Shown here piece by piece: positions 1 to 30,788 of a stretch of 64,000 nt of DNA (position 1 is the first letter of the stretch; each line of letters begins with the position of its first letter). Origin of the DNA: Methylocapsa sp. S129. Lineage in GTDB: Bacteria; Pseudomonadota; Alphaproteobacteria; Rhizobiales; Beijerinckiaceae. The stretch spans positions 258,039 to 322,038 of the forward strand of contig NZ_LMUI01000020.1 in assembly GCF_009765995.1 (NCBI RefSeq), written 5' to 3'. Both the position numbers and the translations under genes were made by a program. The notes under the pieces were generated by a model. The model was given only the letters and a program-made list of their open reading frames with translations, was not told the DNA's origin and searched no databases.

Positions 1-2446
1 CGGCATCGACATTGGCGAGGCCACGCACCATGCGCAGACCGAGTCTGACCGCGAAACGGTCATCCCCGTCGGTCGGCTCCAGCGTGCAGTCCCAGCGAGA
101 GGCATTGATGCAGACGGGGCGAACTTCAACACCGTGATCGCGCGCATCGCGCACGATCTGCGCGGGCGCATAGAAGCCCATCGGCTGCGCATTCAGCAGC
201 GCGGCACAGAAGACATCGGGATGATGGCATTTAAGCCATGACGACGCGTAGGCGATCAATGCGAATGAGGCAGCGTGGCTCTCCGGGAATCCATAACTGC
301 CGAACCCCTCTAACTGGCTGAAGGTCTTCTCAGCAAAGCCGCGCTCATAGCCCTTGGCGATCATGCCGTTGATGAGCTTATCGCGAAACTTCGAGACGCC
401 TCCCGTGTGCTTGAAGGTCGCCATGGAACGGCGTAGCTGGTCTGCCTCGCCGGGAGTAAAACCGGCGCAGACGATAGCAACGCGCATGGCCTGCTCCTGG
501 AAGAGCGGCACCCCGAGCGTCTTGCCAAGCACAGTCTCCAACTCGGGCGTCGGGTAATGGACCGGCTCAATACCGTCGCGCCGGCGCAGATAGGGATGCA
601 CCATATCGCCCTGGATCGGCCCTGGCCGGACGATCGCGACCTGGATGACCAGGTCATAGAAGGTGCGCGGTTTGAGCCTCGGGAGCATCGACATCTGCGC
701 CCGGCTCTCGATCTGAAACGTGCCGAGCGTATCCGCCTTGCGGATCATCGCGTAGGTGCGGGGATCCTCCGCGGGGATCGTCGCGAGATCGAGGGCAACG
801 CCCTTGTGCTCGGCCAGGAGGTCGAGGCCGCGCTTCATGCAGGACAGCATGCCGAGCGCCAGGCAATCCACTTTCATGAATTTCAAGGCATCGATATCGT
901 CCTTGTCCCATTCGATGACCTGACGGTCCTTCATCGCAGCGGGTTCGATCGGCACAAGTTCATCGAGTCGATCGCGGGTGAGGACGAAACCGCCTGGATG
1001 CTGGGACAGGTGGCGCGGCGCGCCCATCAATTCGTGGGCGAGATCGAGCGCAAGTCGAAGTCGGCGATCGCCAAGATTGAGATTCAATTCTTCCACGTGC
1101 TTGGGCTCGACACCCTCTTCCGACCAACCCCAGACCTGACCGGACAACATCTTGATGAGGTCCTCGGGCAGGCCGAGCGCCTTGCCGACGTCGCGGAGCG
1201 CTCCTTTGGCACGATAGCGGATGACGGTCGAGCAGAGCGCCGCATGATCGCGACCGTAGGTCTCGAACACCCATTGCATGACGATCTCGCGCCGTTCGTG
1301 CTCGAAATCCACATCGATGTCGGGTGGCTCCCGCCGCTCCTCGGAAACGAAGCGTTCAAACAGCAGATCATTGCGCTCGGGATCGATCGACGTGACGCCA
1401 AGGACGTAGCAGACCGCACTGTTTGCGGCTGACCCTCTGCCCTGGCAGAGAATGTCCCGGCTTCGGGCAAAACGAACGATCGAATTCACAGTCAAGAAAT
1501 ACGGCGCATATTGCAGCGTCTCTATCAGGCGCAGTTCGTGCTTGAGGATGGCGATTGTCTTGTCAGGCACGCCCTCGGGATAACGTTGCTCAGCGCCCTC
1601 CCAGGTCAACTTCTCCAGCGCCTGCTGCGGCGTGAAGCCGGGGATCGCAGCCTCCTCGGGATATTGATAGGCGAGTTCGTCGAGCGAAAACCGGCAACGC
1701 TCGGCGATCGCTCGTGTTTGCGCCAGCGCTTCGGGATAGCGGCCAAACAATCGCGCCATTTCCTCCGGCGCCTTGAGATAGCGATCGGCATGACGCTCCC
1801 GACGGAAGCCCGCTTCGTCGATCGTGCAATTGTGCCGGATGCAGGTGACGACGTCTTGCAGAATGCGCCGCGCCGGAACGTGAAACAGCGCGTCGTTGGT
1901 GACGACGGTCGGCACGCGCGCCCTAGCCGCCAGGTTCGACAATTCATGAAGTCGCATTGCGTCGTTCGGCCGTCGCCGCAGCGTCAGCGCCATGAATGCT
2001 CGATCGCCAAAGGCCTTGGCGAGGCGCCGCAGGTTTACGGCGCAGAGGTCGTCGGCTTGGTCCGGAACGAGGATCGCAATGAGTCCCTCGCCGTAGGCAA
2101 CAAGGTCCGACCAGTCGAGACGGCACTTCGCCTTGCCTGCGCGCTTCTTGCCGAGAGACAGCAGCCGGCAAAGCCGCGCATAGGCTGGCCGGTCCGTCGG
2201 ATAGACGAGAACGGACATGCCGTCGGTGAGATCGACGCGGCATCCGACGATCAGCCGCACACCGGTCGCCTTGGCGGCCTCGTGGGCGCGAACGATGCCC
2301 GCGAGGCTGTTGCGGTCGACGATCGCCAGACCTTCGATGCCCAACACCGCAGCCTGTGCGAAGAGCTCGTCGCATGAGCTCGCCCCGCGAAGGAAGCTGA
2401 AATGCGAAGTGCATTGCAGCTCGACGTATCGGGTCCCGCTGTTCAT
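1..2446 (-). CDS. dnaE2: Error-prone DNA polymerase DnaE2 (3' end beyond window)
   Basis: This is an alternative C-family DNA polymerase III alpha subunit that performs damage-induced translesion synthesis with ImuA and ImuB. I translated the frame from the ATG at 2446 and found it open to the left edge, giving 815 codons of an expected roughly 1,080. The N-terminus is a PHP domain ([11 protein letters not shown] near residues 13-23). The polymerase core has [10 protein letters not shown] near residue 335 and the catalytic PDIDVDF motif near residue 374. [11 protein letters not shown] follows near residue 480. The start codon overlaps the imuB stop in an ATGA, so the two are translationally coupled as the last genes of the imuA-imuB-dnaE2 operon. 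Transcription should come from the LexA-controlled promoter before imuA. The C-terminal quarter is not visible. Confidence 0.96.
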
Positions 2447-3963
2447 CCGAAGATTCCATGCAGGAACCAGCGATGCGAGCCGGTGTCGGGGTCCTCGCCG
2501 TCACCGGCGCGATAAATCCAGAAGCGCTCGCCCGCCTCGTCTTCGACCTGGAAATAATCCCTGACGGCGATCAACTCGGCATCGCGCTTCCACCATTCGC
2601 CGAAGACGCGCTCGGGGCCATCGGCTCGTTTCACGCGGCGGCGCACGCCGCGCCAGGTAAAGGTGACGGGCGGATGGTCGGGTAGCAGGGCGACCGTCTC
2701 GATCGATTCCGGGTTTGGCAACAGGCGCGCGGGACGCGGCCAATGGTCCGGCCATGTTTCGCCGGTGATCGGAGCGGTTGGCGCGACCCGTTGAACGGAG
2801 CGCTCCGGCACGTCGCTGGCGAATGGAGCGAAGCGATAGAGCCGGCTTTCGCCAACGCGATTGGCGAGCGTGTCGATCAGGCCGGAGACGTCGGTCTCGG
2901 GTTCTTCGATCAGCGAAGAAATGGTCTGCCTCGGCGACAACGGCTCGGCGAGCGTGACGGCGAGGCTCATCAATTCGATGCCGAAGCCCGGATCGACCGT
3001 TTCGATCTTGTCGCAGAGGAGCCGGGTTAGACGCTTTGCGTCGCGCACCGGCAGCGCCGTTCCGATCCGGATCGCCTCAATGCGATTGTCGACGCAATGA
3101 AAGAGAAGGTCGAGCCGCCGCGCGCCGAGGCCTTTGGCTTCAAGCGCCTCGCAGAGTTGCGTCACGAGCTTGCTGGTATAGCGGGCGATCGTTTCCGCGG
3201 CCCCAATCGGCTCAGCGAAACCTCGGCGGACCTCTACGAGGTCGGCAGGGCGCACAGGAACGATCGGCTCGTTGAGCCGTCCCAGGGCTTGGTCAAGACG
3301 GCGGCCGAGTTCCGGACCGAAGCGATGCGTCAGCGGCGCCCGGGGTTTTGACGCCAGTTCGCCAATGCGCTCAAAGCCGAGGACGCGAAGAGCGTCGATC
3401 ATATCTTTGGGCAGACGAAGGACCGCGATCGGCAGATCGAGAACGGCTTTTGCGCTTTCTCCCGGCGGAACGACGAATACCGGCCGCGCGGCACAGCGGG
3501 CAAAGGCATATGCGGACCCCCAGCTATCGGCAATCGCTGCCCGCGCGGCGATGCCGGATGCGGCGAGCCGCTCCACCATCGTTTTCACCATGGCGCCTTC
3601 TCCGCCATGGAGGTGAGCGGCGCCCGTCGTGTCGATCACCAGACCATCAGGCGGATCGGCCGCGACGATCGGCGCGTAGCGCAGCGCCCAGAGCGCCAAC
3701 CGCTCGAGCGCTTGCGTATCGCCAGCCGGCTCCGCGTCCTTGACGATGAGGCCTTTCACAAGTGCCTGCGCTTTGGTCGCCGGCATTCCGACGTGCAACC
3801 CAGCGCGTAGCGCCGCCCTATCCGCCGCCAGCACCACCCGCCGCCTCCCCTCCCGGCCGATCAACAGGAGCGGCGCCTCAGCCGGCGGCGCGGCGGCGCC
3901 TAAATTCCTTCTCACCCGATCCGTCGGCCAGGTCGGAAGGAATAGCGAGACGACCCTTGGCAT
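2443..3963 (-). CDS. imuB: ImuB, catalytically inactive Y-family polymerase homologue
   Basis: ImuB is the adaptor of the SOS mutasome. It resembles DinB-type polymerases and, in known systems, links DnaE2 to the beta clamp. The 506-residue product begins [18 protein letters not shown], the usual ImuB opening, where DinB would carry the metal-binding DMDAFYASVE. The second acidic motif is also altered: DTTGAAHL replaces SLDEAYLD. It is therefore expected to be non-catalytic. The start lies 86 bp inside the end of imuA, and the stop overlaps the dnaE2 start as ATGA. It is the middle gene of a three-gene operon. Confidence 0.95.
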
Positions 3964-4636
3964 CGCAGGCCTCCACTTCGAAATCGGCGCTTTCGCCGGC
4001 CCGACACCGGATCAATTCGACCTGCCATCGGGCGCGTCCAACGCCGGGAACGGGCAGCGGGGTTGAGGGGAGCGCGGTGACGCGCCAGCGGGTGACGGAG
4101 GCCGTTGGCTGCCCGAAGTCGGCGGCTTCGGTTTGCCGCCGCCAGCGGCGCACAGCGATGCCGATGGCGCCGGAGCTTTCGGCGGCGAGTTGAAGGCGGC
4201 GGGAGGCCATCATCGACAGGCGAGCGACCTCGGCGACGACCGCGCCGAGCCCACCGTGTCGCAGCCCCTCTTCGAAGCAGGCGAGGAGCGATTTCTCGTC
4301 CCCCGCCTCAACATAGATCACGCGGTCGGGCCCAAGGCCGGCCTGCGCAATGGCGGGAGCGAACAGGTCCTGGCGGGTGACGCACCACAGGACTTTGCCG
4401 CGCGTCCGAGCCGCGATCCCCGCGGCGAACAGGGCGGCCGCCGCACCGTCGATCACGCCGTCGCCGCCGCCGGCGACCTCATGAAGCGCGCCGAGCGCGA
4501 GGCCGCCTCCCGGTAGACGCCGGTCGATCTCCTTGACGCCGAAGGGAAGCGTCGTGCGACGGCGCGCTGGGCCGCTTTCGAGGCGCTGAATGCGCTCTCG
4601 AAGCTCCGCGACGACAGGATGGGCGGGCGCATTCAT
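3878..4636 (-). CDS. imuA: ImuA, RecA-like mutasome accessory protein
   Basis: This 252-residue protein is of the ImuA (SulA/RecA-like) family, the first gene of the damage-inducible mutasome operon. The start MNAPAHPVVAELRERIQRLES at 4636 was chosen because family members begin here. A longer reading frame to 4921 would run through the LexA box and into the divergent SRAP gene. The RecA-like fold is visible in LPFGVKEIDRRLPGGGL near residues 28-44 and GALHEVAG after it. No clear GKT Walker A is present, which is normal for the family. An AAGGAG lies directly against the ATG, an unusually short spacing. Its 3' end overlaps imuB by 86 bp. Confidence 0.9.
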   Translation of the reverse strand: MNAPAHPVVAELRERIQRLESGPARRRTTLPFGVKEIDRRLPGGGLALGALHEVAGGGDGVIDGAAAALFAAGIAARTRGKVLWCVTRQDLFAPAIAQAGLGPDRVIYVEAGDEKSLLACFEEGLRHGGLGAVVAEVARLSMMASRRLQLAAESSGAIGIAVRRWRRQTEAADFGQPTASVTRWRVTALPSTPLPVPGVGRARWQVELIRCRAGESADFEVEACDAKGRLAIPSDLADGSGEKEFRRRRAAG

Positions 4637-4666
4637 CTCCTTCGCAACTCGTTTCGCTGATGGTAT

Positions 4667-4681
4667 GTTCTCTATTTGTTC
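4667..4681. promoter_or_regulatory. LexA box between imuA and the SRAP gene
   Basis: A perfect GTTC-N7-GTTC, the alphaproteobacterial SOS box, lies in the 96-bp divergent intergenic region. It is 31 bp from the imuA ATG and 52 bp from the SRAP ATG, so one LexA site could repress both directions. Confidence 0.88.
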
Positions 4682-4732
4682 CCAACTCGGCGAATGAGTC
4701 AAATCGCGGGAAGTGGTGCTAAGCTCGGAGCC

Positions 4733-5410
4733 ATGTGCGGACGTTTCACACAGACGACAGGAGACCTGCCGGGCCTCGAGACCGTCGCGACGGGCGAGAC
4801 GGGCGTCGCCTATCCGCCGCGCTTCAACGGAGCGCCCTCTCAAGAGTTCTGGGTCATCCGACGCCACCCCGAAACGGGGGAATACCGCAAGGATCGCTTG
4901 ATCTGGGGCCTGATCCCGCATTGGACGAAGGATCTCGATGGCGGCCGCAAGTCAATCAACGCAAGGGCGGAGACGATCGCGAGCCTTCCGTCTTTCAAGG
5001 GGGCCTACGCCAAGCGCCGCTGCCTGATCGCGATCGACAACTTCTTCGAGTGGAGGGCGATCCAGGGACAGAAGGCCAAGCAACCCTTCGCGATCGCCAT
5101 GAAAGACGGATCGCCCTTCGCCGTCGCCGGCATCTGGGAGAGCTGGGAGCATCCAGAGACCAAGAAAATCATCCGCACCTTCCTGATCATCACGACCGAG
5201 GCCAACGAACTCGTCGCCACGATCCACAACCGGATGCCCGTCATCATCGCACCGGCGGACTATCATCGCTGGCTGAGCCCGCTCGAGCCCGATCCGAATG
5301 ATCTGATGAAGCCATACCCCTCGGAGCCGATGACGATCTGGCCGATTTCGACGCGCGTCAATTCGCCTGGGAACGACAGTACGGACATTCGCGATCCGGT
5401 CGATCCGTGA
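4733..5410 (+). CDS. SRAP-domain (YedK/HMCES-type) abasic-site protein
   Basis: SRAP proteins form a covalent thiazolidine link with abasic sites in single-stranded DNA and protect them during replication. The 225-residue product starts MCGRFTQT, so removal of Met exposes the catalytic Cys2. The start was set at 4733 for this reason, although the frame is open upstream to 4676. Other family motifs are RFNGAPSQ near residue 28, LIWGLIPHW near 52, NARAET near 70, DNFFEWR near 97 and the conserved HNRMPVI near 165. It diverges from imuA across a shared LexA box and is convergent with dinB at a 3-bp gap. This neighbourhood supports a role in the SOS response. Confidence 0.93.
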   Translation: MCGRFTQTTGDLPGLETVATGETGVAYPPRFNGAPSQEFWVIRRHPETGEYRKDRLIWGLIPHWTKDLDGGRKSINARAETIASLPSFKGAYAKRRCLIAIDNFFEWRAIQGQKAKQPFAIAMKDGSPFAVAGIWESWEHPETKKIIRTFLIITTEANELVATIHNRMPVIIAPADYHRWLSPLEPDPNDLMKPYPSEPMTIWPISTRVNSPGNDSTDIRDPVDP

Positions 5411-5413
5411 CGC

Positions 5414-6484
5414 TCACGCGGTCAGCGCGAGATCGAGCTGCTCGGGAGCGGCGACCTGATTGTCGCCGAAGTTTGAAACTGCCACGCCGACGAGGCGCAC
5501 GCCTTGCGCGGGCGGAAATACCGTCCGCACAAGGTCGAGGCTGACTTGGCGCAGAACGGCCGCAGATGTGATTCGACCCGGCAGAGATTGGCTGCGCGTG
5601 GCCTGCCTGAAATCGGCGTATTTGATCTTCACCGTCACGGTGCGGCCAAACGCAGTGGTTTTCTCGCACCACGCCCAGACCTGATCCGCCATCGCGGCCA
5701 CGCCGGCCTCGATGTCGGCTGGATTCAGGAGATCATTTGAGAAGGTCGTCTCCGATCCAGACGACTTCCGGGGACGGTTCGGCACGACGGGACGGTCATC
5801 TTCGCCATTGGCGATCGCGTGATACCAGGGTCCGGACTTTCCAAAGTGCTGCTGCAGAAAAGCCAACGACTGCTTCCGCAGGTCCGCGCCCGTAAAGATG
5901 CCGAGTCGATTCATCCTGTCGGCCGTCACCGGCCCAACACCATGAAACTTGCCGATAGGCAAGGCTTCGACGAAGGCGGCGCCCATCACAGGGGTCACGA
6001 CAAACTGGCCATTGGGTTTGCGATGATCGGACGCGAGCTTGGCGAGGAATTTGTTGTAGGAAATGCCGGCCGACGCGGTAAGCCTCGTCTTCTCGAAAAT
6101 GCGGGCCCGAATCTCCGACGCCGTCGATGACGCTGTTGGGATGCCCCGAAGATTCTCCGTCACATCGAGATAGGCTTCGTCGAGCGAAAGCGGTTCGATC
6201 AACGGCGTATAGTCCGCAAAGATCGCGTGAATTTCGCGCGACACTGCGCGATAGACGTCGAACCTCGGCGGCACGAACACGAGGTCTGGGCATTTGCGTG
6301 TCGCCATGCTCGAAGGCATTGCCGAACGCACGCCGAATTTGCGCGCCTCGTAGCTGGCAGCCGCAACCACACCGCGCTTTGCGGCATAGCCGACAGCAAC
6401 AGGGCGACCTCGTAGCGAGGGATCGTCGTGCTGCTCAACTGACGCGTAGAATGCGTCCATGTCGATGTGGATGATTTTGCGCAT
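5414..6484 (-). CDS. dinB: DNA polymerase IV (DinB)
   Basis: This is an active Y-family translesion polymerase of 356 residues, typical for the family. The first catalytic motif, HIDMDAFYASVEQHD, is at residues 6-20, and SLDEAYLD near residue 100 carries the second acidic pair. AGISYNKFLAKLASDHRKP in the palm and the little-finger region follow. A C-terminal EQLDLALT resembles a beta-clamp binding motif. Unlike ImuB nearby, all catalytic residues are present. It is transcribed from its own promoter, which carries a LexA box 40 bp before the start codon. Confidence 0.96.
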   Translation of the reverse strand: MRKIIHIDMDAFYASVEQHDDPSLRGRPVAVGYAAKRGVVAAASYEARKFGVRSAMPSSMATRKCPDLVFVPPRFDVYRAVSREIHAIFADYTPLIEPLSLDEAYLDVTENLRGIPTASSTASEIRARIFEKTRLTASAGISYNKFLAKLASDHRKPNGQFVVTPVMGAAFVEALPIGKFHGVGPVTADRMNRLGIFTGADLRKQSLAFLQQHFGKSGPWYHAIANGEDDRPVVPNRPRKSSGSETTFSNDLLNPADIEAGVAAMADQVWAWCEKTTAFGRTVTVKIKYADFRQATRSQSLPGRITSAAVLRQVSLDLVRTVFPPAQGVRLVGVAVSNFGDNQVAAPEQLDLALTA

Positions 6485-6523
6485 GGTTCAACAAAATGGT
6501 CGGCGCCGAACTTATCAGAATAA

Positions 6524-6538
6524 GAACATAAAGGGAAC
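6524..6538. promoter_or_regulatory. LexA box upstream of dinB
   Basis: A perfect GAAC-N7-GAAC (spacer ATAAAGG) lies 40 bp upstream of the dinB ATG. A further GAAC lies 12 nt to its left, at 6508-6511. Confidence 0.87.
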
Positions 6539-6663
6539 CGTTCGCGCCATTCGGTGGTGTCTCAGTTTGAATTCCCGGGTACGACGTTTGGAAGCTCCGC
6601 CTTCGGATAGCCCAACTCAGGTGAAACCCAATTTTGCGCGCTGCCTGCGTGTCACATGCGACT

Positions 6664-9600
6664 CTATGAAGGGACGATCGACGGCTCGACGTCAGAGTCC
6701 GCAAAATGCTCATCGACCTTCTGGCCGAGGCAGCATCGTTCGACGTCATCGAGGCCCACGTCCCGTGACGATTTTACGGTGAGGTTTCGCTTCAGGATCG
6801 CGATGTCGGAACGGAGCTGCGGCTTCCCACCCTCTATGACCGCCGGCATAAGGAGATACACACCCGCCTTCTCGTAGTCGGCAAGGAAGCGGCGGAGATT
6901 CGTGTCGGTGTCGGGTTGCATGCGGTTGAACCGCGAAAGAACCATAGCCCCGCCAGGCTTGCGGAGTTCAGAAGGATCAGGACTTGAGGTGATCAACACG
7001 TTGTAGTGGGCCGGGTTCGCGGCCGACACGTCCCGAACGATTGACAGATAGATCTCGTCCTTGCGGTCGACCTCTCCGAAGCGCTCACGCCAGCGTTCGA
7101 AGATCGAGCGTGCCGCGTCGCGATCCGTGAACAGCAAACCGAGCACGGGCGGCACGTCCGGCCCATAGCTGGCATAGATAGTTCCCTTCCACGCAGCTTT
7201 GTTCCAGAGATTGTAGTCGATCACCGAGCGCGTCTGGATGTCGCGGTGGTTGCCGCTCTTCCACCAGGCTTTCATCTTCGCCCCGGTCTGCTCGTCCTTC
7301 TCGTCAGGATCATCGATCTTTTCGCGGACAATTTTCGGCCGGTCATCGCGGAGTGCGTAACTCGTCCGGACGAGTTCGCTCCGCTCATCGAGGGACGTCA
7401 GATCGCGCGAAAACAGGCGGTGATAGCTGTTCGCGGTGATCGAGATCATCGTCACTCGGTCAAACACAGCCTCGTCGCCGGCGAGGCGCTCGATCAGTTC
7501 CATGCCGCCATGCCACACACAGCTGGCAGTCATCGTGAGAAGGGACGCTTCGGTGAGGAAGCGGATCGTGTCAGCGGACCGTTCGAATGAAGTGATCGGG
7601 AGATCCTTGGGCCAAACGAGCTTCGCCGTCGGTTTGAGCGGATCGATCTCGAACGATGGCGCTGCCGCCTCTGCTGCTTCCACAAGGACGATTTCATAGC
7701 GCTCGGTGTGGGGGTGAGTCCGAAGCTCAAAGGCCGTAGCGAAGCAGGCCTCGATCGAAGCGAGGACAGCTTCGGCAACAAGGGTTGCAGTGATCGTTCC
7801 CTCGAACGCCACCTCGACCATCATTCCCATGACCGTCGATTGCAAGCGGCGGCGCCCTGGCCGGTTCGTGATGAGCGGGCCGCGAATGTCGTCAGTCACC
7901 GGTTGGCTGGCGAGCCTTTTGACCATGGCCTGCACGGCCTCGTCAGACTCCCCGGGCGGCAGCGATCCGTCGGTGCGGAGGTGATCCTCGTAGCCAAGGG
8001 CATAGAGCAGCGCGAAGCGCGCGGCGAAGAGCCCGACTGCTTCCAGGATGTCCGGAAGGCCCTCGACCTGGCGCAGTTCCTCCGGCTGGAAGTTGAGGAA
8101 GTAGCTCCCGAGCGCCCTGTCGAAGGTCAGAAGCCGGTCCTTGAGAAGTTCCTTTGACTCGTCGGCGAGCGGCAGGGCGTTTAGGCACCCGTTGAGGAGC
8201 TGGACGGCTTCGAGAAAGTCCGGTAGGTGGCGCAGCTCAAGCGCCGTCCAAGCCATGAATTCGATCGTCGGGACGATCGCAACATCGATCTCGCTATCCG
8301 CCTCGCCCTCGATGGCGATGGACGCCGCCGCAAAAATGGACGTTGCTCGAGACGCCCAGAGCAAGCCCGCGCTCCGGTAGGCCAGACTCAGCAGCTGCAA
8401 GGCCTCGATAAGCTTTTCGGCATACTCCTTCTTGGTGAGCTGGCGCGCCGCTTTGCCGAGCAGGCGGATCATCTCGAAGTGATTATTGAAGTCAAGCTTT
8501 TGGGCGCGCTTGAGGAGCACTAGCGCGCCCTCTGCCTCGCCGGTGCGCTCGCTCACGAAATCGGCGACTTCTTCGATCAGTGAATTGTAAGCGGGGTCAT
8601 TGCCGGCCGCGTTTCCAATCGCCTCGATTAGGTAGACGAGGCGTGTTGCTTCGAATTCACCAAGGCCGCGGGCTTGCGCCAGAATTTTGGAGAACTCCGG
8701 CAAGATCGGCGGGATTGCATCGCGGTCGCCGGCCAGCATAGCCGCGTTGAGGCGACCTAGGAGCAACAACGTCCGCGCCCAGAGCGCGTTCGTCGGGCGG
8801 TCCTTATTCGCCGCGACAGCTTCAAGCCGTGTTTTGAGCCGGCCCGCGCGTGCGTCGAGATCGCATCGCTCGCGCGTGAAGTCGCTGTGGATCACGGCGT
8901 TGTAGAGCATCTGAAGGAGGTTGGAGAGGAACTCCAGATTGGCCGCGTGATCGCTGTCGATAACTAACGCCTCGAAGGCGTCGTAGTTGGAATTCAGTTC
9001 GTTGTAGTCATCGAACCACCAGACAGCGGTCCAGAGCGCTTCGTAGCGCGCCTCAAGCTTCTGCCTGTAGGCACCGTGCGCATCACCAAGACGGATCGCC
9101 CGCTGGAAGCGCCCGTCCGTCTCCGGGCGCGGGCGCTCCAGCGAACGCGAAAGCTTTGCCGCCAGCAGGGCTTCGGTGACGCCTTGGCGTTCCATTCCCG
9201 AAAAGCTGTCGGGGTCCGAAAACGACTTCTCGATCGCTTCCAGTTGCCGGTTGCGGGAGTAGTCGGCGGGGCCAAGCCGGCTCGCGTCGGCGATCTCCTG
9301 TCCCACGTGGAGATAGTTATAGGCCAGGTCTTTGCGGTCGAATTCGATGACCTGCTGCACGATCCACGAACGATCGTGGATCGTGACTTGGATCCCGTAC
9401 TTTTGGGTCAGCTCGTCTTCAAGCGCGGCGCGAGCCTTCGCCTTCGCGTACCGGCTCGTGACAAAGATGATGCGCTTGTAGCCGCGCTCCGTCTTCGTGA
9501 TTCCCTCGACGTCGCTGCGGGCCTTGGCCAGCCATTTCTCTTTGGCGCTGAAAGCGAAAGCCCACTTCTCGTTGCCGGCGTTCGGCTCGCCGACATAGGT

Positions 9601-9888
9601 GAGGGCCATAATCTCATCCGAGACGGGAACGGTCTCAGAGTCGGCTTTGCTGTCGCCGCCGCCATCGGGGCCGGTCTGCGGCCGCAGGTTTCGGCAGATG
9701 GCCCGCTCGCAGAGCTTGCGGCAGAAAATTTCGAAGTCGTGGGTTTGGTTGCGCGAGGTGATCGTGTCGAGGTGGTGGCCGAAAACGGCCCCGTCGAGCA
9801 GGTAGGAGGTGAGCTCGGTCGTGTCCGAATAAATTTCGGGCCGAAGCTGGCGCATGAACGCAGAAGGAGTGAGCTTTTCGTTCGCCAT
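6664..9888 (-). CDS. Large SOS-linked protein with nuclease-like N-terminus and helical repeat body
   Basis: I do not recognise this 1,074-residue protein as a named family. The first 200 residues resemble a restriction-endonuclease-like (PD-(D/E)XK) fold. FEIFCRKLCE lies at residues 52-61, GPDGGGD at 73-79 (candidate metal-binding Asp75/Asp79), and a hydrophobic strand ending FSAK at 113-116 has Lys116 where the DXK/QXK lysine would be. KRIIFVTSRY and TIHDRSWIVQQVIEF follow, as in Mrr-like N-terminal domains. Residues of about 230-620 are strongly alpha-helical and look like a TPR-type solenoid, with no Walker A. The C-terminal third is mixed alpha/beta with no familiar motif. A perfect LexA box lies 26 bp before the start. 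It sits between dinB and an integrase, so a damage-induced DNA-targeting or defence role is an inference. Confidence 0.75.
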   Translation of the reverse strand: MANEKLTPSAFMRQLRPEIYSDTTELTSYLLDGAVFGHHLDTITSRNQTHDFEIFCRKLCERAICRNLRPQTGPDGGGDSKADSETVPVSDEIMALTYVGEPNAGNEKWAFAFSAKEKWLAKARSDVEGITKTERGYKRIIFVTSRYAKAKARAALEDELTQKYGIQVTIHDRSWIVQQVIEFDRKDLAYNYLHVGQEIADASRLGPADYSRNRQLEAIEKSFSDPDSFSGMERQGVTEALLAAKLSRSLERPRPETDGRFQRAIRLGDAHGAYRQKLEARYEALWTAVWWFDDYNELNSNYDAFEALVIDSDHAANLEFLSNLLQMLYNAVIHSDFTRERCDLDARAGRLKTRLEAVAANKDRPTNALWARTLLLLGRLNAAMLAGDRDAIPPILPEFSKILAQARGLGEFEATRLVYLIEAIGNAAGNDPAYNSLIEEVADFVSERTGEAEGALVLLKRAQKLDFNNHFEMIRLLGKAARQLTKKEYAEKLIEALQLLSLAYRSAGLLWASRATSIFAAASIAIEGEADSEIDVAIVPTIEFMAWTALELRHLPDFLEAVQLLNGCLNALPLADESKELLKDRLLTFDRALGSYFLNFQPEELRQVEGLPDILEAVGLFAARFALLYALGYEDHLRTDGSLPPGESDEAVQAMVKRLASQPVTDDIRGPLITNRPGRRRLQSTVMGMMVEVAFEGTITATLVAEAVLASIEACFATAFELRTHPHTERYEIVLVEAAEAAAPSFEIDPLKPTAKLVWPKDLPITSFERSADTIRFLTEASLLTMTASCVWHGGMELIERLAGDEAVFDRVTMISITANSYHRLFSRDLTSLDERSELVRTSYALRDDRPKIVREKIDDPDEKDEQTGAKMKAWWKSGNHRDIQTRSVIDYNLWNKAAWKGTIYASYGPDVPPVLGLLFTDRDAARSIFERWRERFGEVDRKDEIYLSIVRDVSAANPAHYNVLITSSPDPSELRKPGGAMVLSRFNRMQPDTDTNLRRFLADYEKAGVYLLMPAVIEGGKPQLRSDIAILKRNLTVKSSRDVGLDDVERCCLGQKVDEHFADSDVEPSIVPS

Positions 9889-9913
9889 ATCCCTTTCCGG
9901 CGTCCGAGGGCGC

Positions 9914-9928
9914 GAACATTAATAGAAC
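9914..9928. promoter_or_regulatory. LexA box upstream of the 1,074-residue gene
   Basis: A perfect GAAC-N7-GAAC (spacer ATTAATA) lies 26 bp upstream of the start codon at 9888, in a 155-bp gap that otherwise shows nothing. Confidence 0.83.
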
Positions 9929-10043
9929 ACGACTCACGCGAGCGCCAGCTTTCTGGAAGGATTGCAACGTCCGCTCTCCTCCCGTTTGCGGAACTCTGAA
10001 TTGAGACACTACCCGCCGTTCGTCGCCCTAGGACCCCCGCTCG

Positions 10044-11405
10044 CTAGGCGGCGCGCAGAATAGGAGGCCGCTCTCCGCCGGAAGCAGGGCGCTGGACCTC
10101 GGGATTGACAACCGCTCGCCGGGCCGCACCACGCCCCAGCCAACCTTGCAGGGCTCGATTTTCGGCAAGTGAGGCGCCCAATGCCTCAATGGTCGCGCTG
10201 CTGATCGCTTGCTGCTGGCGCCGCAGGTGGTCTTCAAGAAGCTTGTGCCGAGTGATGTAGCCGGCGTTCACGCCAGGAATGGAGTGGTTCATCAGGAGCT
10301 TGGCGTCGAATTCAGAAACACCTGCAATCGTCGCGATGGTTCTGAAGGTTTGGCGAAGATCGTTGCCCCACTTGGAGAGCTCATTTCGATCTTCTTTTGT
10401 CTCGGCGAGATGCCCTGATTCGCTATCGGCTGGGAATACCCATTCCCTCGCCTGCAATGGGTACATTTCCCTGCCGAACCGGATTGCCCGCGCGAGACAC
10501 AGAATCATCTCGCGCGATAACGGGATATCAAATGCGCGCTTGCTGCCGCCCTTCGGCTTGGTCACGCGCAATGTGCGCCTTCGAAAGTCTATGTGATTAG
10601 GCTTGATCGCCTGCAAAGCGGTCGGCCGCGAGCCAGACAGCAACATGAATAGATGGAATTCACGACGCACAGGGTTCTCGAGCGCCCCCAACTCCGAGAA
10701 CCATCCTCTCAGGTCACCCGCGCCCATCCCGGTGTCGCGGCGCTTCTCCTCGTTCCAATCGACAGCGTCTGCAGGATTGTCGGAGGGAAGCTTTTTGTTC
10801 GTCTTTCGCGCGTGATTGTAGATCGCCCGCAAGGTGCGCATCGCCCCGTTCGCGAGATAGGGCCCGTTTTCCTTCGTGACATCGTCGTGCTTTTTCGCCA
10901 CGCGAGCTGGATCTGCGCCAAGCTCACCCAAAGGGGCGTCAAGCCACTCCGCAAAAATGCGTTCCACATGATCGCGATAGCCGGCGATGGTCTTCTCGCT
11001 GCGGTTTTTCCGAACCAGATGGGCTTCCAGATACCGCTGCCACGCCTGCCTGAGTGTGACGTCCGTTGATGCCGTCTTGTTCTCAGCGCTCTCATTTGAG
11101 CCGCTGAGCCCGTCTTGCGAGGGCCTCGGGTGCTGCCCCCGACTGATCTGAGCCAAATATTCCTTTGCCGTCGCACGGGCGGTTCGCGTCGACATTTCAC
11201 TCGTGTCGCCGATCGAGACCCGGATCGACGACGCCCGCTTGCCACCTTTTCTGAGGTCGCCCTGGATGGTGAACGTCCGCTTACGTTTTCCAACGACGAC
11301 GAAGAAGCCCTTCAATTCGGTGTCGCGAGCCAAATACCAACCATCGTCTGGTGCGGGTAACTGAGCGATCGTTTTATCTGTCAGCAGAATTCGGAGGTCA
11401 GCCAT
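10044..11405 (-). CDS. Tyrosine recombinase / integrase
   Basis: This is a 453-residue site-specific recombinase of the phage/ICE integrase family. An N-terminal arm-binding-like domain (residues 1-90) is followed by a SAM-like core-binding domain (about 115-205) and the catalytic domain. Catalytic candidates are Arg260 in SGSRPTAL, Lys283 or Lys285 in TKPKGG, Arg351 in NDLRQTFRT, His374 in MNHSIPG and Tyr383. The first histidine of the HxxR box is Asn348 here. The gene points into the element and lies 180 bp from a tRNA-Lys 3' fragment, the usual arrangement for an integrase beside its attachment site. Confidence 0.92.
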   Translation of the reverse strand: MADLRILLTDKTIAQLPAPDDGWYLARDTELKGFFVVVGKRKRTFTIQGDLRKGGKRASSIRVSIGDTSEMSTRTARATAKEYLAQISRGQHPRPSQDGLSGSNESAENKTASTDVTLRQAWQRYLEAHLVRKNRSEKTIAGYRDHVERIFAEWLDAPLGELGADPARVAKKHDDVTKENGPYLANGAMRTLRAIYNHARKTNKKLPSDNPADAVDWNEEKRRDTGMGAGDLRGWFSELGALENPVRREFHLFMLLSGSRPTALQAIKPNHIDFRRRTLRVTKPKGGSKRAFDIPLSREMILCLARAIRFGREMYPLQAREWVFPADSESGHLAETKEDRNELSKWGNDLRQTFRTIATIAGVSEFDAKLLMNHSIPGVNAGYITRHKLLEDHLRRQQQAISSATIEALGASLAENRALQGWLGRGAARRAVVNPEVQRPASGGERPPILRAA

Positions 11406-30155: not shown

Positions 30156-30788
30156 ATGAAGGTGCTCTATATCGAAGCGTCCCCGCGTAAAGAGCGGTCG
30201 GCCTCCATCGAGGTTGCGAATGCATTTCTGGATGCGCTGAGGGCGGAAAATCCGGACACGCAGATCGATGTTCTGGACCTTTGGGCGCATCAACTGCCAG
30301 AATTCGACGGGCCGACGCTGCAAGCCAAATACGCCGGGCTCGAGGGCGTGGAGCGAACCCCGGCGCAGCAGGCGGCTTGGGAAGCGATCAATGTTATGGG
30401 CGACCGCATCAAGGCCGTCGATCTCCTGCTCTTTGCGATCCCGATGTGGAATTGGGGCATTCCTTACAAACTAAAGCACCTGATCGATTTCGTGTCGCAA
30501 AAGGACGTACTCTTCACCTTCGACGAACGCGGCTTGAACGGGCTGCTCACCAATCACCGCGCCGTCTGCATCTATGCGCGCGGCATCGCTTATGGGGCTG
30601 ACAGCGAGCTTGCGAGCTGGGATCAGCAACGTCCTTTCATGAACACTTGGCTCACCTCTGTCGGCGTCCCGACGATCGACACCTTACTGGTGGAGAAGAC
30701 CTTGCTCGGCCCCGACGTCGACGTGCAGGCCCGCGACGCCGCCAAAAAGGCCGCGCAGGCGCTGGCGAAGACGATCGCGCGCTGCTAG
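30156..30788 (+). CDS. azoR: FMN-dependent NADH azoreductase / NAD(P)H quinone reductase
   Basis: This is a 210-residue flavodoxin-like enzyme of the AzoR group that reduces quinones and azo compounds with two electrons. It starts MKVLYIEASPRKERSAS, where SPRxxxS binds the FMN phosphate. PMWNWGIPYKLKHLIDFV near residues 95-112 is the FMN-binding PMYNF/W region. The ATG at 30156 has GGAGA 7 nt upstream. It is divergent from the LysR gene. It may protect against quinones formed in aromatic catabolism, which is an inference from location. Confidence 0.92.
   Translation: MKVLYIEASPRKERSASIEVANAFLDALRAENPDTQIDVLDLWAHQLPEFDGPTLQAKYAGLEGVERTPAQQAAWEAINVMGDRIKAVDLLLFAIPMWNWGIPYKLKHLIDFVSQKDVLFTFDERGLNGLLTNHRAVCIYARGIAYGADSELASWDQQRPFMNTWLTSVGVPTIDTLLVEKTLLGPDVDVQARDAAKKAAQALAKTIARC

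Follow-up and report, generated by a model that had tools for sequence, protein, structure and literature searches.

The three LexA-type boxes found within 5.3 kb of a 64,000-nucleotide stretch of the Methylocapsa sp. S129 genome (the window) are very likely under LexA/SOS control, to judge from their sequence and placement. One stands between an imuA-imuB-dnaE2 operon and a divergent SRAP gene, one before dinB, and one before a gene for a 1,074-residue nuclease-like protein of an undescribed family. The box before this last gene recurs, with its position and orientation kept, in separate alphaproteobacterial lineages. We consider it probable that this is an acquired SOS locus, in which LexA would repress a mutasome together with a nuclease acting as a defence or DNA-clearing effector.

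LexA-type boxes in the window

The boxes are direct repeats of the form GAAC-N7-GAAC, or GTTC-N7-GTTC on the other strand, which passages of two published papers (PMC3091678, PMC12700426) give as the alphaproteobacterial LexA motif. The box common to imuA-imuB-dnaE2 and SRAP (4667 to 4681, minus strand, GAACAAATAGAGAAC) has its edges 30 bp from the ATG of imuA at 4636 and 51 bp from that of SRAP at 4733, the box upstream of dinB (6524 to 6538, plus strand, GAACATAAAGGGAAC) lies 39 bp from the dinB start at 6484, and the box upstream of the 1,074-residue gene (9914 to 9928, plus strand, GAACATTAATAGAAC, or GTTCTATTAATGTTC on the strand of the gene) lies 25 bp from the start at 9888. An earlier note on this DNA had placed exact matches at these positions and within about 55 bp of start codons, and both statements hold, with measured gaps of 25 to 51 bp.

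The same note had argued from the number of matches that the boxes are not due to chance, and here the conclusion stands while the proof does not. Its expectation of about two matches was right (2.2), but the window holds five bare matches rather than three, and five or more occurred in 9 of 100 shuffles. The bare count was rejected as evidence, as it is enriched neither in the window nor in the genome. What carries the conclusion is a refined form with an A/T-rich core, GAACAWN5GAAC, which occurs 39 times genome-wide against 7 times for a reversed control. The refined core fits all three window boxes and neither of the other two matches (6928 to 6942 and 30525 to 30539), a fit that is partly post hoc because the core was picked after the boxes, including these three, had been inspected; the genome-wide enrichment is measured against the reversed control. 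On a matrix built from 11 boxes of SOS genes (six from the genome and five from plasmid cassettes), the three boxes score 27.2, 22.7, and 21.5 and the other two matches 7.9 and 0.8, although the score of 27.2 is not independent because one of the training boxes is identical to the imuA box of the window. At genome density, 0.03 refined sites would be expected per 5.3 kb, and the chance of such a triple anywhere in the genome is about 0.02. As expected of alphaproteobacterial LexA sites, the window boxes are direct repeats near start codons, and their cores resemble those of the boxes of the genome's recA, uvrA, and comM. The match at 6928 to 6942 (plus strand) was rejected as a fourth box; it lies within the 1,074-residue gene, and its core and matrix score are unlike those of a LexA box.

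Recurrence of the box before the nuclease gene

An exact box was found within 200 bp upstream in 12 of 90 family rows (11 of 35 alphaproteobacterial rows plus L086), and all of these boxes read GTTCTA-N5-GTTC along the direction of the gene. Misbinning or a recent transfer may explain L086, which is filed under a Dechloromonas metagenome-assembled genome (MAG) and encodes a family protein identical to a Sphingomonadales copy. The 90 rows exclude the plasmid hits H6 and H8, which nearly duplicate H5 and H7; H12 to H16, partial or distant matches of which the one read, L048, has no box; L035 and L036, whose contigs are already represented by L055 and L062; L037 and L038, both distant; and the fragments L032 to L034. 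Dereplication took 36 rows to 27 upstream regions of 120 bp, four of which carry the box. With the spacing kept, the 11 alternative permutations of the repeat gave 1 match in 297 tests, and none of them, nor any different spacing from 4 to 10, reached two. Between the upstream regions of the four box-bearing lineages, blastn aligns only the start of the coding sequence and two matches of 15 to 18 bp (E 0.09 to 0.31). Since few members carry the exact box and its distribution on the family tree needs at least three changes, SOS control would be a recurrent trait of a minority of the family.

The recurrence extends to loci outside the initial sample. A search of 396 genomes from the order of Novosphingobium L080 returned two new full-length members, at most 57% identical to known members, and both have a box (GTTCTACCCTTGTTC and, in the second member, L225, GTTCTAGCTTCGTTC). 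A broken member with a non-homologous 5' part and a box nearby (L226) and two C-terminal matches (L227 and L228) were dropped from this count. Each of the five box-bearing genomes tested has more copies of the refined motif than of the control (40 v 4, 24 v 9, 22 v 0, 28 v 4, and 36 v 4). Together, the boxes in other lineages and in both new members support the assignment of the 1,074-residue gene to the SOS block. Boxes with one mismatch stand at 7 of 27 loci, compared with 0 to 4 across 11 permuted motifs, and the degenerate boxes at -52 in Stakelama (L066) and -49 in Brevundimonas (L081) are suggestive only.

A nuclease-like protein family

The gene (6664 to 9888, minus strand) encodes a protein without a match in Pfam, NCBIfam, PADLOC, or PHROGs. 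Ten members of its family gave only weak matches, each confined to one member, and the sole PADLOC match among ten members was to a weak TPR model (E 0.05, one member). Sequence searches of the PDB were uninformative, with one designed protein matched by the helical middle (E 0.0035), and a search of viral contigs gave nothing useful. Relatives were found in 16 plasmid records and as 215 related stretches in named genomes, 80 of which were kept, and they are spread over Pseudomonadota, Cyanobacteriota, Bacillota, Acidobacteriota, Chloroflexota, and Thermodesulfobacteriota. Closer to the window the distribution is sparse: among 199 relatives' genomes, the whole gene is present only in the window's own and fragments in two more, and 5 of 385 genomes of the class, its own included, have a family match.

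An AlphaFold model of the whole protein (mean predicted local distance difference test score [pLDDT] 87.8) places a long helical middle between an N-terminal domain and a C-terminal part that are both alpha/beta. The N-terminal domain (approximately residues 1 to 200; 9289 to 9888, minus strand), modelled alone at a pLDDT of 80.9, found Avs4 first in Foldseek (8dgf, E 1.2e-4, probability 1.00; a second Avs4 chain at 1.3e-3), followed by EcoT38I and FokI at E 0.007 to 0.008. Within this domain, all 50 rows have E53, D79, K81, D83, E85, and S114, and 48 have K116. A restriction-endonuclease fold, conserved acidic residues, and a (D/E/S/Q)xK motif, here S114-x-K116, are the marks of PD-(D/E)XK enzymes, and the likeness to Avs4, EcoT38I, and FokI agrees with the earlier description of the product as nuclease-like. 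The middle weakly resembles TPR superhelices (best Foldseek E 0.004). On the strength of these models, the protein is likely a PD-(D/E)XK nuclease joined to a putative repeat scaffold, and it would resemble an Avs effector and sensor minus the nucleoside triphosphatase (NTPase). Its identification as an Avs protein was rejected, as the Walker A motif GxxxxGK[ST] occurs in none of 85 members, which argues that it is no STAND NTPase.

The mutasome arm and the genome's SOS regulon

The mutasome arm is known biology. dnaE2 (imuC, error-prone polymerase III alpha; 2 to 2446, minus strand) runs past the left edge of the window, with its C-terminal part in L191, and matches the Pfam families DNA_pol3_alpha, DNA_pol3_finger, and PHP. 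imuB (2443 to 3963, minus strand), encoding a Y-family polymerase-like protein with IMS, IMS_C, and DUF6504 matches, overlaps both dnaE2 and imuA, which indicates an operon. imuA (3878 to 4636, minus strand) is named from its cassette context and an NCBIfam ImuA match (E 3e-18) whose 66 bits lie below the curated cut-off of 150. Divergent from this overlapping operon across the common box is the gene for an SRAP protein of the YedK/HMCES type (4733 to 5410, plus strand; Pfam SRAP E 6e-64; N-terminus MCGRF), and dinB, which has its own box (5414 to 6484, minus strand), encodes DNA polymerase IV with an NCBIfam match above the cut-off (E 3e-137) and the motifs IDMDAF and SLDEAYLD in its translation.

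The order of imuA, imuB, and dnaE2 behind a LexA box is that of the known cassette. An imuB relative occurs in 735 plasmid records, the closest being a Methylocapsa copy (80% identical), and in plasmid loci dinB, SRAP, and/or a helicase gene diverge from imuA. A box precedes imuA in all seven plasmid loci read (L196 to L202, with imuA lacking annotation in L196 and alone visible in L202). In L196 to L199, the box separates imuA from SRAP and dinB, with L200 as a variant, and L202 and L203 have boxes 10 and 21 bp ahead of their annotated dinB starts. Among 16 other imuB loci from 15 relatives' genomes (picked at E <= 1e-100 among 120), 14 have a box upstream of imuA, which in L216 is in the opposite orientation; the exceptions are L219 and L221. 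Passages of PMC6472365 describe the induction, during anoxic growth of Sphingopyxis granuli, of lexA, recA, two imuAB-dnaE2 operons, and SRAP genes. One plasmid locus, L198 (pC6.5b of Rhizobium rhizogenes), also has a reverse transcriptase gene and an adjacent helix-turn-helix regulator near its dinB-SRAP/imuA module.

The genome itself encodes both lexA and recA. The genes recA, uvrA, and comM, named from Pfam and NCBIfam matches (comM being our label for a Mg-chelatase/ChlI protein), each have a refined box upstream, and a second imuB-dnaE2 set follows a box of its own; the box upstream of lexA (GAACACAGAGTGAAC) has the bare form and falls outside the refined core. A box identical to that of dinB (GAACATAAAGGGAAC) lies 71 bp before a DUF5677 gene (L131, C17:90588), and two overlapping refined boxes stand in tandem at C24:11493-11518 (L137/L138, GAACATAAAAAGAACATAGAGAGAAC). 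LexA-type boxes also precede genes for a TIR/ThsB-like protein (L005, C5), a Tox-REase-5 protein (L139, C26), and an AHH-nuclease protein (L003, C5). Several proteins for killing or defence may accordingly belong to the genome's SOS regulon. About 80 kb to the left of the cluster on the same contig (L188, G000:C27:175500-183500) lie a broken imuA behind its own LexA-type box, parts of which are 73% identical to the imuA of the window, and a second SRAP gene with a box, as well as a patatin phospholipase gene adjoining one for a CD-NTase-like protein, the latter judged by eye and without a Pfam match.

Locus neighbours and mobility

The nuclease gene adjoins a gene for a tyrosine integrase with an Arm DNA-binding domain (10044 to 11405, minus strand; Pfam Arm-DNA-bind_3; PHROG integrase E 2e-28), and six Sphingopyxis loci likewise pair the family gene with a related integrase. 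Ten genomes of the same genus have no match to the 1,074-residue gene and none to this imuB at E <= 1e-100. With the adjoining integrase, this supports the description of the block as an island, and the SOS locus appears to have been acquired horizontally. A direct-repeat search for attachment sites at the locus gave nothing useful.

Among hand-picked loci, PADLOC identified Hachiman HamA and HamB beside the box-bearing Sphingobium copy (L042) and, near the family gene, IetA and IetS in Burkholderia plantarii (L040), a type IIG methyltransferase/endonuclease in Stakelama (L066), and an Argonaute-associated-REase/Avs2-like protein in Agrobacterium (L045). Behind the family gene of L076 lies one for an Mrr_cat protein, and ahead of that of L071 an AbiEii gene.

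SOS genes lie within approximately 6 kb of the family gene (tblastn, E <= 1e-5) in 4 of 89 other loci, namely L076 (imuA, imuB, and dnaE2), L070 (imuB and dnaE2, beside a LexA-family gene), L071 (dinB), and L082 (SRAP). In L076 (a Sphingomonadales MAG, 1-10863), a box at 3619-3633 separates a minus-strand imuA with its start at 3603 from three plus-strand frames, namely a small open reading frame, a weakly HATPase-like gene (4098-5936), and the nuclease gene overlapping it. To judge from their spacing, these three form a putative operon, in which the nuclease gene would share its box with imuA, an arrangement like that of SRAP in the window; L076 was entered in the box count as lacking a box.

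Proposed mechanism and alternative explanations

In the mechanism that we propose, LexA bound at the three promoter boxes would silence dinB and the nuclease-TPR gene, each from its own box, and imuA-imuB-dnaE2 with the divergent SRAP gene from a common one. A build-up of single-stranded DNA (ssDNA), whether from a genotoxin, stalled forks, or incoming phage or plasmid DNA, would lead to RecA filaments and self-cleavage of LexA. The loss of LexA would then switch on all three units, supplying translesion polymerases and an abasic-site protector along with a PD-(D/E)XK nuclease bearing a TPR-like recognition scaffold. A nuclease potentially harmful to its own cell would thus be kept silent and its cost held down until ssDNA signals damage or invasion. 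For mutasomes, repression by LexA and its relief through RecA filaments are established in other systems. LexA binding, induction, nuclease activity, and a defence purpose at this locus are what we infer. Because this box stands before the nuclease gene in several bacteria that are not related, the encoded protein is probably a damage-induced defence or DNA-clearing enzyme. A defence role is plausible and is favoured by the neighbours, the sparse spread, and the Avs-like domains. More tentatively, and with a little under even confidence, the protein may represent a widespread undescribed antiphage family, a nuclease with a TPR scaffold and no NTPase, that has repeatedly been put under host LexA, with immunity and mutagenesis answering to one alarm. 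No report of LexA control of an antiphage family was among the literature matches listed, a set largely without subscription papers.

Several findings weigh against this interpretation. At the level of the boxes, the bare motif occurs 182 times in the 6.87-Mb genome against 204 times for the reversed control, and a scan for consensus sigma-70 promoters at the boxes found none. At the level of the family, the exact box is absent within 120 bp in 23 of the 27 dereplicated alphaproteobacterial upstream regions, is found in 1 of 55 rows outside the Alphaproteobacteria (L086), and in the new member L225 has the bare form without the refined core; before the beta- and gammaproteobacterial copies, exact CTGTN8ACAG was not found, and one-mismatch forms occur in 2 of 42. 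A box at the SRAP start was seen in 1 of 29 other SRAP loci fetched (L155 only). The view that the block forms one damage regulon is supported, with qualifications: the link between mutasome and nuclease is supported by L076, where both flank one box, but the SRAP box is not general and most of the family lacks the exact box. As for function, the defence neighbours carry no background count, and PADLOC on ten neighbour proteins gave no match for three (two of L080 and one of L083). In Foldseek, only the top match of the N-terminal domain has E < 0.001, unrelated folds rank between FokI and Can2/BamHI, and every match of the whole protein has E > 0.001.

The alternative that survives best is that two cargoes adjoin by chance, a plasmid-type SRAP/dinB/imuAB-dnaE2 module and an integrase-nuclease element, with separate boxes and no common function. 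This is a serious possibility, though we lean against it. Plasmid modules have dinB, SRAP, or a helicase gene with imuA-imuB-dnaE2, and no annotated nuclease of this kind was noticed among them; the Sphingopyxis copies, in turn, pair the nuclease with an Arm-type integrase and lack imu genes. Against this, L076 again joins imuA-imuB-dnaE2 and the nuclease gene around one box, and the same box type would mean joint induction whatever the history of the two parts.

A different outcome of the same induction would be that heavy damage releases the nuclease to kill the cell or digest the cell's own chromosome, in an abortive or competition-related role. SOS-induced toxins exist in other bacteria, and in this genome other LexA-type boxes precede genes for Tox-REase-5, AHH-nuclease, and TIR-domain proteins. 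No secretion or immunity gene was noticed beside the nuclease gene, although no search was aimed at one, and we consider this role unlikely.

We regard it as distinctly unlikely, too, that the protein is a repair or replication-fork nuclease working with the mutasome on damaged ends or blocked forks. Such a role is favoured by the company that the nuclease keeps in the window, L076, and L070: its gene has its locus and box type in common with imuAB-dnaE2, SRAP, and dinB, an imu, dinB, or SRAP relative lies nearby in the four other loci described above, and such boxes normally control repair genes, according to passages of PMC3765255 and PMC12700426. However, 85 of the 89 loci have no such neighbour at E <= 1e-5 (some loci end at contig edges), the neighbours observed are often integrases, transposases, and defence genes, and the sparse spread among relatives' genomes is unlike that of a core repair gene. 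That the boxes are chance matches, as the lack of enrichment of the bare motif might suggest, is very improbable given the enrichment of the refined motif, their distances of at most 51 bp from four starts, their conservation, and their presence in both out-of-sample members.

Comparison with known systems

The preferred reading, an acquired locus with a LexA-repressed mutasome and nuclease, can be set beside three kinds of known system. A plasmid-borne imuA-imuB-dnaE2 SOS mutagenesis cassette was reportedly described by Erill et al. in 2006. The window shares with plasmid cassettes the gene order, the overlapping frames, and the box before imuA. A cassette of this kind showed LexA-dependent expression and caused hypermutagenesis in a new host, as described in passages of Remigi et al. 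2014 (PMC4151985), where the box is of the beta/gamma type CTGTN8ACAG, whereas that of the window is of the GAAC-N7-GAAC type. The window cassette lies on a 366-kb contig, which may be chromosome or plasmid, of a 6.9-Mb assembly, beside a nuclease-integrase unit. SRAP has been linked to both ImuA-ImuB-DnaE2 and DinB neighbourhoods, according to passages of Aravind et al. 2013 (PMC3765255); compared with the SRAP-dinB neighbourhoods, dinB in the window is inverted and has its own box.

The nuclease arm is the new part, a family that is without a Pfam, NCBIfam, or PADLOC match and that has, in several alphaproteobacterial lineages, an SOS box at the same spot. Avs4 is the closest solved fold to its N-terminal domain, and the layout may be similar, with the nuclease first and a helical repeat later, but Avs4 is a STAND NTPase with PDB chains of 1,534 to 1,541 residues, whereas members of this family have approximately 1,070 residues and no Walker A motif. 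Immune operons that stay off until DNA damage are described for CapW/BrxR, CapH-CapP, and CapK-CapS in passages of PMC13373217. Those regulators are dedicated and local, and the main text of that paper contains neither 'LexA' nor 'SOS'; in the window, the host LexA box would itself act as the switch, and no local regulator was seen. The locus thus bears on whether host LexA gates an immune nuclease, beside the known dedicated damage-sensing regulators, and such direct gating, if true, would be simpler than theirs.

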